This document shows, piece after piece, positions 30 to 5,699 of a DNA stretch of 24,269 bases. Source of the stretch: a virus; IMG/VR virus record IMGVR_UViG_3300030099_001336, positions 1 to 24,269 of that record. One strand, given 5' to 3'. The notes beneath the pieces are model-generated. The model searched no databases, was not told the origin of the DNA, and worked only from the letters and a program-made list of their open reading frames with translations. Both the position numbers and the translations under genes were made by a program. Positions within the stretch are counted from its first letter, which is position 1; every line of letters begins with the position of its first letter.

Positions 30-847
30 TGAAAAATTGTCCAGTTGACATAGAAGGTTTGTACGAAGGCTATATTGCCCGTAAAAACGAAGAAAACTAC
101 AAAGAACGATACGAGGGTAGGGAAAGGTATTATCATGGCTCTGGTGCGGGTTCTTGCTCACGTAAGCTGTATTTTGAATCTGTAGACCAAGTAGATGCTA
201 CTAATTTTACAGATGAAAGAATAAATCGCTTACTACGTTTAGGAACGATTGTTCATGATGACTTACAAATCGCTTTAAAAGATATGGTAGTTTCCGATAC
301 TATATATAGTAATACTATAGATAGTAATACTATATATTGTAAAGAAAAAGAAATACATAATTTACAAAAAGAAAGTTTTGATTTTCATATTGAAAAAGAA
401 GTTATCCTAGCAGACTTAAATGTCCGAGGTTTTTATGACCTCGTTGCGGTGTCTAGGACTACTGGCAAAGTTTTTCTTATAGACTTTAAAACCATGGCGA
501 GTTACGCGTGGTCTCGTAAGTTTGGATATAAGAATCCAGACCCCAACGCTACGAAGCATCAAGAGATTCAGCTTGGAACTTATGGCTTGGCGGTTGAGAA
601 AGAATTTGGTAGATTAGATGGGATGTATTTGTACTACTACAAGAAAGATGACTCACGTATGAGATGTGTGAGTGTCGGTCTTCATATGCTAAAAAGTGCA
701 TATAATTTTTGGGTAAATGTAAACAAAGAACATGAAAAAGGATTGCCTCAATTTAGGCAAGGTATCTCTCCAGTAGAAGACTGGAATTGCAGTTATTGCA
801 AGTATCTTGACCATTGCAATCCTCCATTTCACAAAAGAAAAAAGTGA
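29..847 (+). CDS. Cas4/RecB-type PD-(D/E)XK nuclease with Fe-S cysteines
   Basis: A 272-residue protein with the hallmarks of the Cas4/AddB-like exonuclease family. His76 (RLGTIVHDDLQ) is followed by Asp137 (GFYDLV), Asp152-x-Lys154 (FLIDFKT) and Gln181/Tyr185 (QLGTY) of the PD-(D/E)XK core. Cys43 together with Cys254, Cys257 and Cys263 (CSYCKYLDHC) matches the four-cysteine arrangement that holds a 4Fe-4S cluster in Cas4. Such enzymes resect DNA ends to expose single strands. The annealing protein and SSB encoded just downstream fit that role, making this the likely nuclease half of a phage recombination pair. There is no cas1 or cas2 nearby, so a CRISPR role is not suggested. The start follows an in-frame stop at 2-4 and overlaps the stop of the upstream gene; no clear SD is visible. 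An in-frame pentapeptide repeat (residues 91-105) sits between the His and Asp motifs. Confidence 0.85.
   Translation: MKNCPVDIEGLYEGYIARKNEENYKERYEGRERYYHGSGAGSCSRKLYFESVDQVDATNFTDERINRLLRLGTIVHDDLQIALKDMVVSDTIYSNTIDSNTIYCKEKEIHNLQKESFDFHIEKEVILADLNVRGFYDLVAVSRTTGKVFLIDFKTMASYAWSRKFGYKNPDPNATKHQEIQLGTYGLAVEKEFGRLDGMYLYYYKKDDSRMRCVSVGLHMLKSAYNFWVNVNKEHEKGLPQFRQGISPVEDWNCSYCKYLDHCNPPFHKRKK
299..343 (+). repeat. 15-bp in-frame tandem repeat inside the nuclease gene
   Basis: Three imperfect 15-base units encode TIYSN, TIDSN and TIYCK. Inside them the imperfect inverted motif ATAGTAATACTAT occurs twice (306-318 and 321-333), each copy symmetric around a central base. The repeat sits in a loop of the nuclease between conserved motifs, so replication slippage could change its copy number without breaking the frame. 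Confidence 0.7.
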
Positions 848-855
848 TTCATACC

Positions 856-1614
856 ATGATGCAATGCACAAGATGCAAAAAAAATAAATCGTTAGATGAA
901 TTTTACAAAAGAAAACAAAATAAATGCGGATACAGAAAGCCTTGTATCGAATGTCATAAAGAAGCATCTAAAAAGTATAGAGAAAATAATAAAGATAAAA
1001 TTGATGCATATACATTGAAAAATAAAATTAAAATACAAAAATATGCTAAAGAATGGTATGAAAACAATAAAGATAGAGTCAATCAAGTAAATAAAGAATG
1101 GAAAGAAAAAAATAAAGAGAAAGTTAAAGGTTATCGTAAGAAGTATTATTATAACAATATTGATAAGATTAAAAGTTACAGATTAGAAAATTTAGAAAAA
1201 ACAAAAGAATATAGAAAAAAATATAGAAAAGAAAATTTAGATAAAATAAAAAAGCACCTGCAAGAATATTATATTAAAAACAAAAAAGACATTCTAAAAA
1301 GAAACAAACAACATTATAATGATAATAAAAAAAATATACTAGAAAAGCAAAAAAAATACTATCAAGAAAATAAAGAAAAAGTATATGAATCTAATAAAAA
1401 ATGGAAAGAAAAAAATAAAGACTATTTAAAAAAATGGTATCAAGAATATAAAAAGTACAATAGAGAGAATTTAACTGATGTTTATATTAGAGGAATTCTT
1501 ACTAGTGATGGAGATTTAAAATCAAAAGATATACCTCAAATACTTATTGATGCTAAAAGAAATTTTATAAAACTAAAACAAGTAGTGAAAGGAGATGATA
1601 AACATGAAAAATAA
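856..1614 (+). CDS. Lysine-rich repeat protein with N-terminal CxxC...CxxC zinc motif
   Basis: About 252 residues. The N-terminus carries Cys4-x2-Cys7 and Cys30-x2-Cys33, a likely zinc ribbon (numbered from the ATG at 856; ATG 859 is equally possible). Then comes a run of about nine Lys/Tyr/Asn-rich units with a period near 15 residues (KEWKEKNKEKVKGYR, KKYRKENLDKIKKHL, QEYYIKNKKDILKRN and similar), predicted to be long, highly basic helices. The C-terminus (about the last 50 residues, ENLTDVYIRGILT...DIPQILIDAKRNFIKLKQ) looks like a separate small helical domain. Similar zinc-motif plus KxxYxxNKxK arrays occur in phage HNH-type proteins, but I see no HNH active site here. Nucleic-acid binding is inferred from the charge and zinc motif. 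An upstream in-frame ATG at 814 would overlap the nuclease gene and lacks an SD. The overlap with the next gene is 11 bases. Confidence 0.75.
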   Translation: MMQCTRCKKNKSLDEFYKRKQNKCGYRKPCIECHKEASKKYRENNKDKIDAYTLKNKIKIQKYAKEWYENNKDRVNQVNKEWKEKNKEKVKGYRKKYYYNNIDKIKSYRLENLEKTKEYRKKYRKENLDKIKKHLQEYYIKNKKDILKRNKQHYNDNKKNILEKQKKYYQENKEKVYESNKKWKEKNKDYLKKWYQEYKKYNRENLTDVYIRGILTSDGDLKSKDIPQILIDAKRNFIKLKQVVKGDDKHEK

Positions 1615-2444: not shown

Positions 2445-3072
2445 TTCAAATGACATGTTTGACGACTTGTTAACAAACAAAGAAAGTTTCTTTGTACCGA
2501 CTAGCACTCCAAGCAAAACCTCAGTTGCTCCAAATGTACGAGGCGAGTTTTATGGACACCTAGCTGACGCACAAATGAAAGAAGTTTCTTGGACTAAAGA
2601 CGGAGAGAAGTTTAAAGCAATAGTTTATAATTACTCATTCGTTGTTGATGAAGCAAATAAGTCGCAAAGCTATACATATGCTAGCTATAAAGACTCATCA
2701 GAGCAAGTTGCATCTGGAGAGGATTATATTGGTCGTTCTTACAAGGCTAACGGAGTTTTTAGATTCCTAGAGCCTAGTGAGGGAGATGATTTCAAGTCTA
2801 ATGCATCTGGCAATAAATCTTATTTTAGATTCTGCGAGACGCTAGGCTTGGATATAGAAAAGAAAGTCGCACAAATCGATGGGCAAGATGTAGAAGTTAA
2901 AATCTTACCATCACTTGACCCTTCTCAAATCAACGGAAAACCTGCAATAGCAGTTGTTGATAAAGGTAAACCATATACTACGAAAGATGGTAAAGAAAGG
3001 ACACCATTTGTAGTTAAGTTTATCAAAACATGGGAAGGCGGAGAAGTTAAGAACGATGACATTCCTTTCTAG
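2437..3072 (+). CDS. ssb: Phage single-stranded DNA-binding protein with SSB-type acidic tip
   Basis: A 211-residue protein ending in NDDIPF, nearly identical to the last residues of bacterial SSB (DDDIPF). In bacteria that tip recruits SSB partner proteins such as RecO, RecQ, exonuclease I and primase. The body is beta-rich and could form an OB fold (GEFYGHLADAQMKEVSW, KFKAIVYNYSFVV, ANGVFRFLEP), but the sequence is not an obvious copy of bacterial SSB. Its place after the annealing protein supports the call. AGAGGAG at 2423-2429 precedes the ATG by seven bases. It overlaps the annealing protein by 8 bases and the next small gene by 17 bases. Exact fold and family are uncertain; the tip is what I am sure of. 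Confidence 0.72.
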   Translation: MANSNDMFDDLLTNKESFFVPTSTPSKTSVAPNVRGEFYGHLADAQMKEVSWTKDGEKFKAIVYNYSFVVDEANKSQSYTYASYKDSSEQVASGEDYIGRSYKANGVFRFLEPSEGDDFKSNASGNKSYFRFCETLGLDIEKKVAQIDGQDVEVKILPSLDPSQINGKPAIAVVDKGKPYTTKDGKERTPFVVKFIKTWEGGEVKNDDIPF

Positions 3073-3208
3073 AGATAAGAGGAGACGTGTAGGTCGAGCA
3101 AAAGAGTTTTTAATTAACACTCTTTATGGCTTTGGTCTAAACGGAAGAAAGATATCCAAAATTGTGGGGGTATCGAGAGCTACTGTGTACAGACACATAC
3201 GCAAGTAG
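3056..3208 (+). CDS. 50-residue helix-turn-helix protein
   Basis: An open frame starting at ATG 3056 inside the end of ssb and stopping at TAG 3206-3208. The product is short and basic. Its C-terminal half (GLNGRKISKIVGVSRATVYR) is a clear helix-turn-helix of the Hin/resolvase type: G-x-x-GRKI-xx-I-x-GVSRATVYRHI matches the two helices and the turn glycine. GGAG at 3040-3043 lies 12 bases upstream, and the 17-base overlap with ssb suggests coupled translation. No catalytic recombinase domain is attached, so it may act as a stand-alone DNA-binding regulator. It sits directly before the structured non-coding stretch, which it could control; that link is an inference. Confidence 0.68.
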   Translation: MTFLSRDKRRRVGRAKEFLINTLYGFGLNGRKISKIVGVSRATVYRHIRK

Positions 3209-3241
3209 CATATGGGAGACTCTGCTATCCGCGAGGAAGTA

Positions 3242-3269
3242 GGGAGTGTTTTTTGGGCTCCCTTTATTT
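3242..3269 (+). terminator. Possible intrinsic terminator or attenuator hairpin
   Basis: GGGAGT...GCTCCC forms a 5-6 bp stem with a U-rich loop, followed by TTTATTT. It lies 34 bases after the helix-turn-helix gene stop. The stem is short and the U tract is interrupted, so termination would be weak. It may instead be one arm of the larger structured element. Confidence 0.25.
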
Positions 3270-3352
3270 GCCTAACAGCCCATCCTTTCGCACTCTGGTT
3301 CAGTCTCCCAAGAATTATAGGTAGCATGATGTTACCTCGTCGAAAAGAGAAC

Positions 3353-3370
3353 GGGAGTCTTCGGACTCCC
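3353..3370 (+). promoter_or_regulatory. UUCG-capped hairpin just before a ribosome binding site
   Basis: GGGAGTC-TTCG-GACTCCC is a perfect 7-bp stem with a C(UUCG)G loop, an unusually stable RNA tetraloop. It ends ten bases before the SD AGGAGG (3380-3385) of the 49-residue gene. No U run follows, so it is not a terminator. It may protect a 5' end, block ribosome or nuclease passage, or set SD accessibility. Confidence 0.5.
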
Positions 3371-3388
3371 TGACTCGATAGGAGGAAT

Positions 3389-3538
3389 ATGAAAAAAGAG
3401 TCAAGCCATATACGAAATGTAAGAAAAGTAAAAGAGATTGCTAATGGATGTTGGTGGGTTGAGATGTATCTTATGGATAGATGTGGACTAACAACATCTT
3501 GGAAGACCGTTCAAGGTAGAAAAAGAGAGAGGTTTTAA
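3389..3538 (+). CDS. 49-residue basic protein of unknown function
   Basis: Starts at ATG 3389 after the strong SD AGGAGG (3380-3385), though the spacing is only three bases, which is short. The frame runs to TAA 3536-3538 and the next gene's ATG follows after one base. The product is basic, with VRKVKEIANGCWWVEMYLMD in the middle and VQGRKRERF at the end. It looks like one compact beta-containing unit; no family recognised. The stable UUCG hairpin directly upstream suggests its translation may be controlled by RNA structure. Confidence 0.6.
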   Translation: MKKESSHIRNVRKVKEIANGCWWVEMYLMDRCGLTTSWKTVQGRKRERF

Positions 3539-3539
3539 G

Positions 3540-3866
3540 ATGGTTAAAGCAGAAATGAATGATTTAATGGAGCATATATTTGATGAGGTTACTCGCATCA
3601 GAAATGCGGGGCAGACTGAGTATGCTAGAGATTTAGATAATGTATTTGCAAATTTTGAAAGAGTCGCATCGTTTACGGGTACGACAAGAGAGAAAGCATT
3701 ATTGACCTACATGATTAAGCACGTTGATGGACTATGTGCTTACGCTGATGGTCATAATTCACAACGAGAAGATGTTAGAGGTAGATTGACAGACATCATA
3801 GTTTATGCAATGCTATTCTGGGGAATGGTAGTGGATAATAAAAACAAAGGAGATAGTAATGGGTAG
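3540..3866 (+). CDS. DUF1599-like helical phage protein
   Basis: A 108-residue all-helical protein. The pattern EYARDLDNVFANFERVA (27-43), then YMIKHVDGLCAY (57-68) and REDVRGRLTDIIVYAMLFWG (76-95) resembles phage proteins of the DUF1599 / nucleotide-modification-associated type, which have a conserved YA..D.NAF.NF and a late R..D...Y motif. That family is thought to relate to all-alpha nucleotide pyrophosphatases, but I do not see a full MazG-type EExxE set, so enzymatic activity is unproven. AGAGG at 3528-3532 lies seven bases upstream. It overlaps the next gene by 8 bases. Confidence 0.6.
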   Translation: MVKAEMNDLMEHIFDEVTRIRNAGQTEYARDLDNVFANFERVASFTGTTREKALLTYMIKHVDGLCAYADGHNSQREDVRGRLTDIIVYAMLFWGMVVDNKNKGDSNG

Positions 3867-4358: not shown

Positions 4359-5699
4359 ATGAACCAAATTGTAGATGAGTCTACTGAAAATGTAGTCTTA
4401 GGGAGCCTTATCCTCAATCCAGATGAATATAACATGGTCGCACAGTATGTACCAGAGAATGAAGTGTTCTCACAAAAGAAGTCAAAGAAGCTGTGGGAAA
4501 AGATAACAAAGATGCGACAAACAAGCCAGCATATTGATACGCTTACAGTATGTTCATCCATTACTACTGATGACATGAATAGCGGTATTACAAAGAGTTA
4601 TGTTATTGATTGCACGAGCAATGCATGTATGGTAGGTGCTACCGAAGCATATGCACAGAAAATATATGAGAAATATCTTCTGCGAAGAATTGTGCAAGAA
4701 TCTGATAAAATAAAGCATGATGTATTGCACTATGGTACAGATGTATATGAGTTGATTGGAGATGCACATACGCTTATGGGAGAACTTATAAAGGTTAGAC
4801 CAGGCATGAAGTTTAGCATCAATGAGGCGATGGCAGAGACAGTTAAAAGTATGGGTAGCGGTGACAAGAGAATGATACGTACTGGGTATCCTAAGATAGA
4901 TAGCTTCGCAGGTGGTCTTACAAGAGGAGAGATTACGATTGTAGGTGGCAGACCAGGTCATGGTAAAACTACGTTCCTTGTAAATCTACTTGCATCACTT
5001 GTGGGGAAAGGGTTTAAAGTCGCGGTGTTTAATAGAGAGCTACCTAACACAGAGGTGCTTAAAAAATTAATATGTATAGAAGAACCTAAACTAAACTATA
5101 GAGATGTGAGGCGTGGAATATTCTCAGAGAAAACTGTAGAACTTCTGAGACAATCACAGAAAAAGATTACATCTAAGTACAGCGAAGACAAGTTTATTAT
5201 GTTTGATGATGTCAGAGACTTTCCTAAAACTGCATCAGAAGTAAAGAAATTTAAACCCGATGTTATTATAGATGATTATATACAGCTTATAACTCCTTCA
5301 ACAAGACAAGATACAAGACGTCTACAGCTTGAGGAGATTTGCAATGCATATAAATGGCTTGCTAAAGAAAGTAATGCATCTGTAATCCTAGCATCACAAC
5401 TTAACAGGTATTTAGAAACAAGAGGTGGCGAACATAAAAGGCCACAGCTTTCTGACCTTGCAGAGTCTGGAGCAATAGAACAAGTGGCAGAGAACGTATT
5501 CTTTATATATAATCAGTATAAAGTAGACCCTGCTCACGGGAGTCAAAATGAGCTACGTCTTATTGCCAGTAAAGTACGTTATGGTGAGACTGGCGAGGTT
5601 ACGCTTGGTTACCATGGAGACATCTGTACGATATACGATGAACTACCAATACCTGTATATGGAGCAAATTATGCCAAAGAGCAACTCAAAATTAATTAA
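4359..5699 (+). CDS. dnaB: DnaB-type replicative DNA helicase
   Basis: A 446-residue protein with the full DnaB layout. An N-terminal helical domain starts ENVVLGSLILNPDEYN, followed by a linker and the RecA-like ATPase. Walker A is GGRPGHGKTT (196-205), Walker B is DVIIDDYIQL (301-310), the sensor motif is LASQLNR (344-350), DnaB motif 4 is RPQLSDLAESGAIEQVAENV (361-380), and a probable arginine finger lies in KVRYG (405-409). It unwinds duplex DNA as a hexamer at the phage fork. No fused primase is present and no primase or polymerase is visible in this window, so these may lie to the left or come from the host. AAGGGAG precedes the ATG by six bases. It is slightly shorter than most bacterial DnaB proteins, mainly at the ends. 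Confidence 0.95.
   Translation: MNQIVDESTENVVLGSLILNPDEYNMVAQYVPENEVFSQKKSKKLWEKITKMRQTSQHIDTLTVCSSITTDDMNSGITKSYVIDCTSNACMVGATEAYAQKIYEKYLLRRIVQESDKIKHDVLHYGTDVYELIGDAHTLMGELIKVRPGMKFSINEAMAETVKSMGSGDKRMIRTGYPKIDSFAGGLTRGEITIVGGRPGHGKTTFLVNLLASLVGKGFKVAVFNRELPNTEVLKKLICIEEPKLNYRDVRRGIFSEKTVELLRQSQKKITSKYSEDKFIMFDDVRDFPKTASEVKKFKPDVIIDDYIQLITPSTRQDTRRLQLEEICNAYKWLAKESNASVILASQLNRYLETRGGEHKRPQLSDLAESGAIEQVAENVFFIYNQYKVDPAHGSQNELRLIASKVRYGETGEVTLGYHGDICTIYDELPIPVYGANYAKEQLKIN

Follow-up and report, generated by a model that had tools for sequence, protein, structure and literature searches.

The 24,269-base virus record IMGVR_UViG_3300030099_001336 (GC 0.34), analysed over its whole length and referred to here as the window, has a gap between a helix-turn-helix gene and a 49-aa gene, which raises the question of whether this gap encodes a structured RNA and what such an RNA might do. 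The element separates two early genes of an uncultured bacterial virus. The + strand carries an exonuclease-like and an HNH-type gene, the gene of a Sak-like annealing protein and a 211-aa gene, which has no family match and occupies the place of an ssb; these are followed by the 50-aa helix-turn-helix gene, the RNA element, the 49-aa gene, more small genes and the genes for a DnaB helicase and a Holliday-junction resolvase, and a large block of late genes lies on the minus strand. The HNH/endonuclease-VII-like gene (window 814-1614), here between the exonuclease and the annealing protein, lies directly after the RNA element in the relative L028. No close relative was found by DNA among 50,697 phage records, distant DNA search included, nor by searching the phage records with four proteins, where the best matches were distant ones to helicases and primases and one of 37% in Rhodothermus phage RM378. 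The IMG sample numbers of several related contigs are, we believe, those of marine samples.

The original prediction placed in this gap an 8-bp closing helix, a GNRA-capped stem, two further inner stems and two downstream hairpins, and read them as a cloverleaf plus two hairpins that is not a tRNA. Every one of these blocks is present within 3209-3388: the closing helix (GGGAGACT with AGTCTCCC), the GCGA-capped stem and the inner stems at the positions given in Table 1, and the hairpins at 3320-3326/3330-3336 and 3353-3359/3364-3370. The gap is also richer in G+C than its flanks, as had been noted, with 0.50 and 0.45 in two 100-base bins compared to 0.37 and 0.35 in the adjoining ones and 0.34 for the window. 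The two hairpins stand, and the cloverleaf has to be replaced by a three-way junction, because the two inner stems stack through an internal loop instead of forming separate arms of a four-arm fold. The element is thus a three-way junction (module M1) plus two hairpins (module M2), and ARAGORN detected no tRNA or tmRNA gene in the window or in 15 related loci. Against dinucleotide shuffles, the + strand of 3209-3388 folds at -65.9 kcal/mol compared to -51.8±4.6 (z -3.10; 1 of 200 shuffles as good) and the minus strand more weakly (z -1.92). Taken separately, M1 (3213-3310) and M2 (3318-3377) gave z-scores of -3.35 and -3.81, with none of the 200 shuffles as good in either case.

Table 1. Positions of the RNA element, its parts and the adjoining genes in the window.
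Feature	Position	Strand	Evidence or remark
Upstream gene, 50-aa helix-turn-helix protein	3056..3208	+	ORF; HTH_7 E 5.7e-05, just under cutoff
M1, three-way junction P1/P2/P3-P4	3213..3310	+	z, CM matches, covariation
M1 P1, 5' strand GGGAGACU	3214..3221	+	pairs with 3302-3309
M1 P1, 3' strand AGUCUCCC	3302..3309	+	pairs with 3214-3221
M1 P2: CUGC/GUAG, UA/A bulge, UCC/GGA, GNRA loop GCGA at 3231-3234	3222..3242	+	
M1 P3: GAGUG/CACUC	3244..3248/3291-3295	+	all five pairs double-changed
M1 P4: GGGCU (3255-3259)/AGCCC (3277-3281), variable loop	3255..3281	+	all five pairs double-changed
Unpaired UCCUUUC, anti-Shine-Dalgarno-like	3283..3289	+	motif enrichment, sequence
M2: hairpin a, near-invariant linker, hairpin b on GAG/CUC base	3318..3377	+	z, CM matches, covariation
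M2 hairpin a: GGUAGCA/UGUUACC	3320..3336	+	99% paired in A7; one-sided changes via G-U
M2 near-invariant core UCGUCGAAAAGAGAA	3337..3351	+	exact 16-mer match in 12 related contigs
M2 hairpin b: GAG/CUC base, AAC/UGA internal loop, GGGAGUC-UUCG-GACUCCC	3347..3376	+	
Shine-Dalgarno AGGAGG of next gene	3380..3385	+	sequence; start codon at 3389
Downstream 49-aa gene	3389..3538	+	first gene past the element varies among phages

Related elements were collected by several routes. A protein search gave four homologous contigs, the exact 16-mer TCGTCGAAAAGAGAAC from the gap gave eight further related contigs with other flanking genes, later sequence patterns added four more, and searches with two neighbouring proteins yielded about 150 additional loci. 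Three matches to the 16-mer (L011, L019 and L021) have no hairpins around it and were set aside as chance. Among bacterial and archaeal genome contigs the 16-mer occurs 81 times, never with both the upstream GTTA/GTTG-type hairpin end and the downstream ACTC; since about 120 chance matches are expected for a collection of that size, there is no sign of prophage copies in it.

The helices of M1 are maintained by compensatory changes. All pair counts come from alignments of the separate modules (A6, A7 and A9), the full-length MAFFT alignment (A1) being too poor for counting. Among 15 sequences, 95.4% of the cells are paired and 45 carry double changes, compared to 17.6±3.3 after shuffling, and pairing falls to about 45% when the partners are slid by one base. 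RNAalifold, unaided, recovered the same helices, with compensatory changes in 11 of 23 pairs. A covariance model built from these 15 sequences matched 30 records (E up to ~0.02), including the divergent L188, L204, L219, L249, L254, L270 and L271, and its weaker matches (E 0.15-4) fall exactly in the GAGCAGU-type gap (L143, L195, L032, L016 and others). In the resulting alignment of 29 homologues, which was fitted to the model and is therefore biased towards it, pairing is 95.5%, double-sided changes affect 19 of 22 pairs, and 153 double-change cells were counted compared to 45.5±5.8 in shuffled and 13-26 in slid controls. Such changes reach 5 of 7 pairs of P1 (alignment A9). The base of P2 alternates between CUGC/GUAG, CCGC/GUGG, CUAC/GUAG, CUGU/ACAG and other forms, and its loop is GNRA in every aligned M1.

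M2 behaves as a unit of its own. Its model matched 24 records, and the first 12 related records carry one copy each. In 15 sequences, 99.2% of the cells are paired and 19 show double changes compared to 4.8±2.1 after shuffling; these stem from hairpin b, since hairpin a varies one-sidedly and the GAG/CUC base never, and RNAalifold agrees with the fold. The linker between the stems comprises about 10 near-invariant bases. Hairpin b ranges from ~16 to ~90 nt among relatives and in L229, L030, L242 and L160 encloses another conserved module, M3. The modules also occur apart: M2 without M1 in L036, L192, L030, L160 and L242, and M1 without M2 in L150-L164, where the Shine-Dalgarno and start codon come directly after it. 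A nearly identical long hairpin (GGGGGCGGGCUAAUGnAG..AACAGCCCCC) lies in hairpin b of L143, L165 and L225; its occurrence beside different replication genes suggests module exchange. The near-invariant UCGAAAAGAGAA of M2 (window 3340-3351) resembles the Shine-Dalgarno segment UCGAAAGGAGAA (3376-3387), which lies downstream of M2 in many relatives, and it could conceivably act as a decoy or as an alternative partner of UCCUUU.

In the paired columns, G-U cells outnumber A-C cells by 23 to 4 in M1 and by 27 to 0 in M2, which is expected only if the + strand RNA folds. Coding does not account for the conservation, because homologues break the 53-codon frame at 3212-3373: it is stopped within M1 in 14 of 29, the indels are not multiples of three, and lengths vary regardless of reading frame. 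A second frame, ATG..UGA across M2, is shifted in L036, L192 and L030 and was discarded. As the original prediction held, no known RNA family was recognised: at the gathering threshold neither the window nor 14 homologous loci match any Rfam 15 family, and permissive searches returned only chance-level matches below threshold (TeloSII_ncR30, Pinc, SAM-SAH and NEAT1_2), which are unrelated. The literature holds comparable motifs from marine phages but none that can be equated with the element; this survey did not extend to preprints and most subscription papers, so an earlier description outside Rfam is possible. The gap thus contains a conserved folded RNA, and the proposal of a new structured RNA is borne out by folding better than shuffles, abundant compensatory changes in homologous gaps, the failure of coding as an explanation and the lack of an Rfam match. 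With strong comparative support, this is a genuine new family of structured RNAs in uncultured phages, which consists of two exchangeable modules and is entered in no RNA catalogue. It adds well-supported RNA families in a phage lineage without close relative in the searched collection, and indicates that such phages swap folded RNA modules irrespective of the genes on either side.

A switch between mutually exclusive pairings had been suggested from the three copies each of GGGAG (3214, 3242 and 3353) and CTCCC (3258, 3305 and 3366). The repeats are where they were said to be, but they are not conserved, and the switch finds no support. CTCCC at 3258 reads GTTCCC in L146-L148 and is gone in L149, L165 and L150-L164; GGGAG at 3242 reads GTCAGAG in L148, and in the downstream hairpin it is elsewhere replaced by GGGGTGG, AGGGCGC or GGGGGCG. 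To judge from these homologues, only this phage and its closest relatives have the repeats. A pseudoknot between the P4 loop and hairpin a (UUGCCUA/UAGGUAG) was likewise rejected; it is available in the closest relatives, but L149, L165 and L150-L164 lack the loop sequence. A regulatory role is still plausible because of a different feature, a conserved unpaired stretch that resembles an anti-Shine-Dalgarno sequence.

Of the mechanisms considered, control of translation is the most likely. Our tentative reading, with a probability of about 0.4, is that of a cis-acting element in a polycistronic early mRNA, composed of two independently inherited modules, which controls translation of the next gene. 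In 29 of 30 M1 loci the upstream stop codon ends close to the base of P1, no more than 10 nt past it and no more than 11 nt ahead of it (4 nt ahead in the window), an abutment that spans at least five unrelated upstream genes and that compact phage genomes would explain in part. A Shine-Dalgarno usually follows M1 or M2 within a few to 16 nt; in loci with M1 only, it begins 9-16 nt past the module. Of 33 elements, 28 contain a UCCUUU-type stretch, mostly unpaired, in the P3/P4 part of M1, compared to 8.5 expected from shuffled domains, these elements being related and not 33 independent events; the stretch is missing in L175, L195, L031, L225 and L227. The motif is found in an internal loop in most elements (the window, L150 and L204 among them) and in an apical loop in L270, L219, L206 and L143, so that the sequence appears to be kept while its structural setting changes. 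The position of the stop codon, the proximity of the Shine-Dalgarno and the conserved UCCUUU together lead us to favour masking of the Shine-Dalgarno by a pseudoknot.

In the folded M1, UCCUUU would pair with the following AAAGGA(G) Shine-Dalgarno in a long-range pseudoknot and, where M2 does not intervene, P1 would crowd the Shine-Dalgarno site, so that the downstream gene would be held off. A ribosome terminating on the upstream gene would overlap the 5' strand of P1 and open the fold, amounting to translational coupling by unfolding; alternatively, the balance may be set by a ligand or a protein that recognises either the GNRA stem-loop or the near-invariant linker of M2. M2 would be a second recognition domain between M1 and the start site. 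In the window, UCCUUUC is complementary to GAUAGGA (3377-3383) at 6 of 7 positions, with a U-U mismatch in the proposed pairing, and the best plain duplex with the Shine-Dalgarno lies elsewhere in M1; the predicted duplexes between motif and Shine-Dalgarno are best in L204, L271, L270, L219, L206, L022 and L143. Such complementarity is common to any pyrimidine-rich stretch and, since Shine-Dalgarno sequences hardly vary, the complementarity test is weak and covariation between motif and Shine-Dalgarno uninformative. We infer that the complementarity may nevertheless reflect an actual pairing. M2 alone (L036, L192 and L030) is unexplained by UCCUUU and, against control of a single gene, the variable first downstream gene agrees no less well with a role across the whole operon.

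One such role would be that of a nascent-transcript element acting on RNA polymerase, by antitermination or anti-pausing like that of HK022 put, which prevents termination in cis with no protein needed; transcription would then continue through the early operon regardless of the gene that comes next. The single M2 of each phage record always lies in the middle of the early operon, the first gene after it varies from phage to phage and the later gene block is common to them, and M2, with about 60 nt and two stem-loops, is built much like put, which has ~70 nt and two stem-loops (PMC9378689). However, put sits downstream of early promoters, while here many genes precede the element and a consensus scan found no sigma-70-type promoter in 2900-3700 and no terminator on the + strand; moreover, the M2 stems are set apart by their linker, and close abutment to a Shine-Dalgarno is unnecessary for such a role. 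We regard this explanation as possible but doubtful. Rather unlikely is an element of mRNA processing or stability, whose hairpins would be cut or would protect ends, splitting the replication and recombination cistrons from the small-gene block. The element does lie within the early gene block upstream of a common small-gene set in three phage lineages, and its modules interchange, as protective structures could, yet processing by itself does not predict the constant unpaired UCGUCGAAAA, the GNRA loop or UCCUUU. We consider still less likely a ligand-binding riboswitch with M1 or M2 as its aptamer: a three-way junction with a constant GNRA loop, a conserved bulge and an internal loop beside a Shine-Dalgarno would suit it, but the genes downstream have no evident common pathway and no Rfam riboswitch matched.

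That the operon transcript releases a small RNA acting in trans is improbable. One copy per record and a conserved unpaired UCCUUU that could pair with the Shine-Dalgarno of other mRNAs would agree with it, but the consensus scan gave the element neither a promoter of its own nor a + strand terminator, M1 and M2 are found apart, and in M1-only loci the distance to the next Shine-Dalgarno is short (9-16 nt). That the 53-codon frame is a small protein gene instead of an RNA is scarcely credible given its interruptions, the non-triplet indels and the covarying helices, even if it is open in the window and many relatives and often has an ATG at the start of P1. A DNA-level signal (an origin or a protein site) or a minus-strand terminator, suggested by one terminator-like match on the minus strand (3370-3353), is equally hard to credit, since the bias of G-U over A-C demands a + strand RNA and 0.6 such matches are expected by chance in the scan.

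Further modules were observed in the same phages. M3 is a conserved structured module found in L016 (3927-4001), L144 (318-400), L032 (240-340), L182 (3561-3642), L186, L190, L218 and L260, and nested in M2 in L229 (5329-5410), L242, L030 and L160. Its closing stem covaries (GGGGGAC/GUCCCCC, GAGAGCC/GGCUCUC, GGGAACC/GGUUCCC), a near-invariant AAYAACUGGUCCURUAAG stands opposite GCAAAGGAAUAUGUGAG, and its outer hairpin is variable; it contains an SD-AUG-UGA-like string and had no Rfam match in the loci tested. M3 looks like an aptamer or ribozyme core. In L183 (5599-5749) a tRNA-like stretch, TGTAAGA...GGGTTCGAATCCC...TCTTACA, is apparently inserted in its variable hairpin. M4 (GAGAGAGUUUYAGGGGCAAUAAAAACCUAACG..ACCCUACGAGAA...GCAACUCAAGCAAUGGUUCUCUCUC) replaces M1 before M2 in L036 (~830-930) and L160 (~5570-5660), and M5 (UUAGGGCAAACRACACGRCAACGGUGAGCAGUU...GUUUGCCCUA) follows M1 or M3, at L188 after 3234, L249 after 6620, L254 after 6623 and L182 after M3. 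A speculative and rather unlikely extension is that these phages use exchangeable, stackable and nestable RNA cassettes (M1, M2 and at least M3, M4 and M5) between early genes, as a modular layer of RNA control including at least one new riboswitch or ribozyme class.

Several known systems share features with the element. The manA and wcaG RNA motifs are structured domains nearly confined to marine metagenomes and phages and thought to be cis-regulatory (Weinberg et al., 2010; PMC2864571); the likeness lies in a structured phage RNA of that presumed function, and the difference in the absence of a cmscan match at the gathering threshold and in phages that have no close relative among the 50,697 records. 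In T4-like phages, the promoter-early stem-loops (PeSL) are conserved intergenic cassettes that combine promoter and terminator, lie beside variable genes and are swapped between phages (cited in PMC4503421). The element also borders exchangeable genes, its first downstream gene being variable and the same hairpin occurring in the distant lineages L143 and L165, but the consensus scan gave it neither promoter nor terminator on the + strand, unlike PeSL. With HK022 put it shares a compact two-hairpin RNA in phage early transcripts and the irrelevance of the downstream gene (PMC9378689); it differs in its place in mid-operon with no sigma-70-type promoter ahead, its abutment to the Shine-Dalgarno, the long near-invariant linker (~10 nt) in place of adjoining stem-loops and the separate three-way junction module. 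Translational riboswitches likewise have a multi-helix junction and an anti-Shine-Dalgarno-like stretch ahead of the start, conserved here well above the shuffled expectation (28 of 33 compared to 8.5), but the element has no common downstream pathway and no known family or ligand. To our knowledge, the coupling structures of f1 VII/IX and MS2 coat/lysis are hairpins each peculiar to one gene pair, whereas a single conserved fold is found here between various gene pairs. Like those systems, the element places a structure after the stop codon of one gene and ahead of the start of the next, with the stop codon here at or next to it (29 of 30 loci, at -10 to +11 nt), and RNA unfolding is established as one of the two models proposed for translational coupling (PMC12548453). 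The element therefore offers a testable case in which an anti-Shine-Dalgarno loop within a three-way junction, placed between unrelated gene pairs, would control translation.
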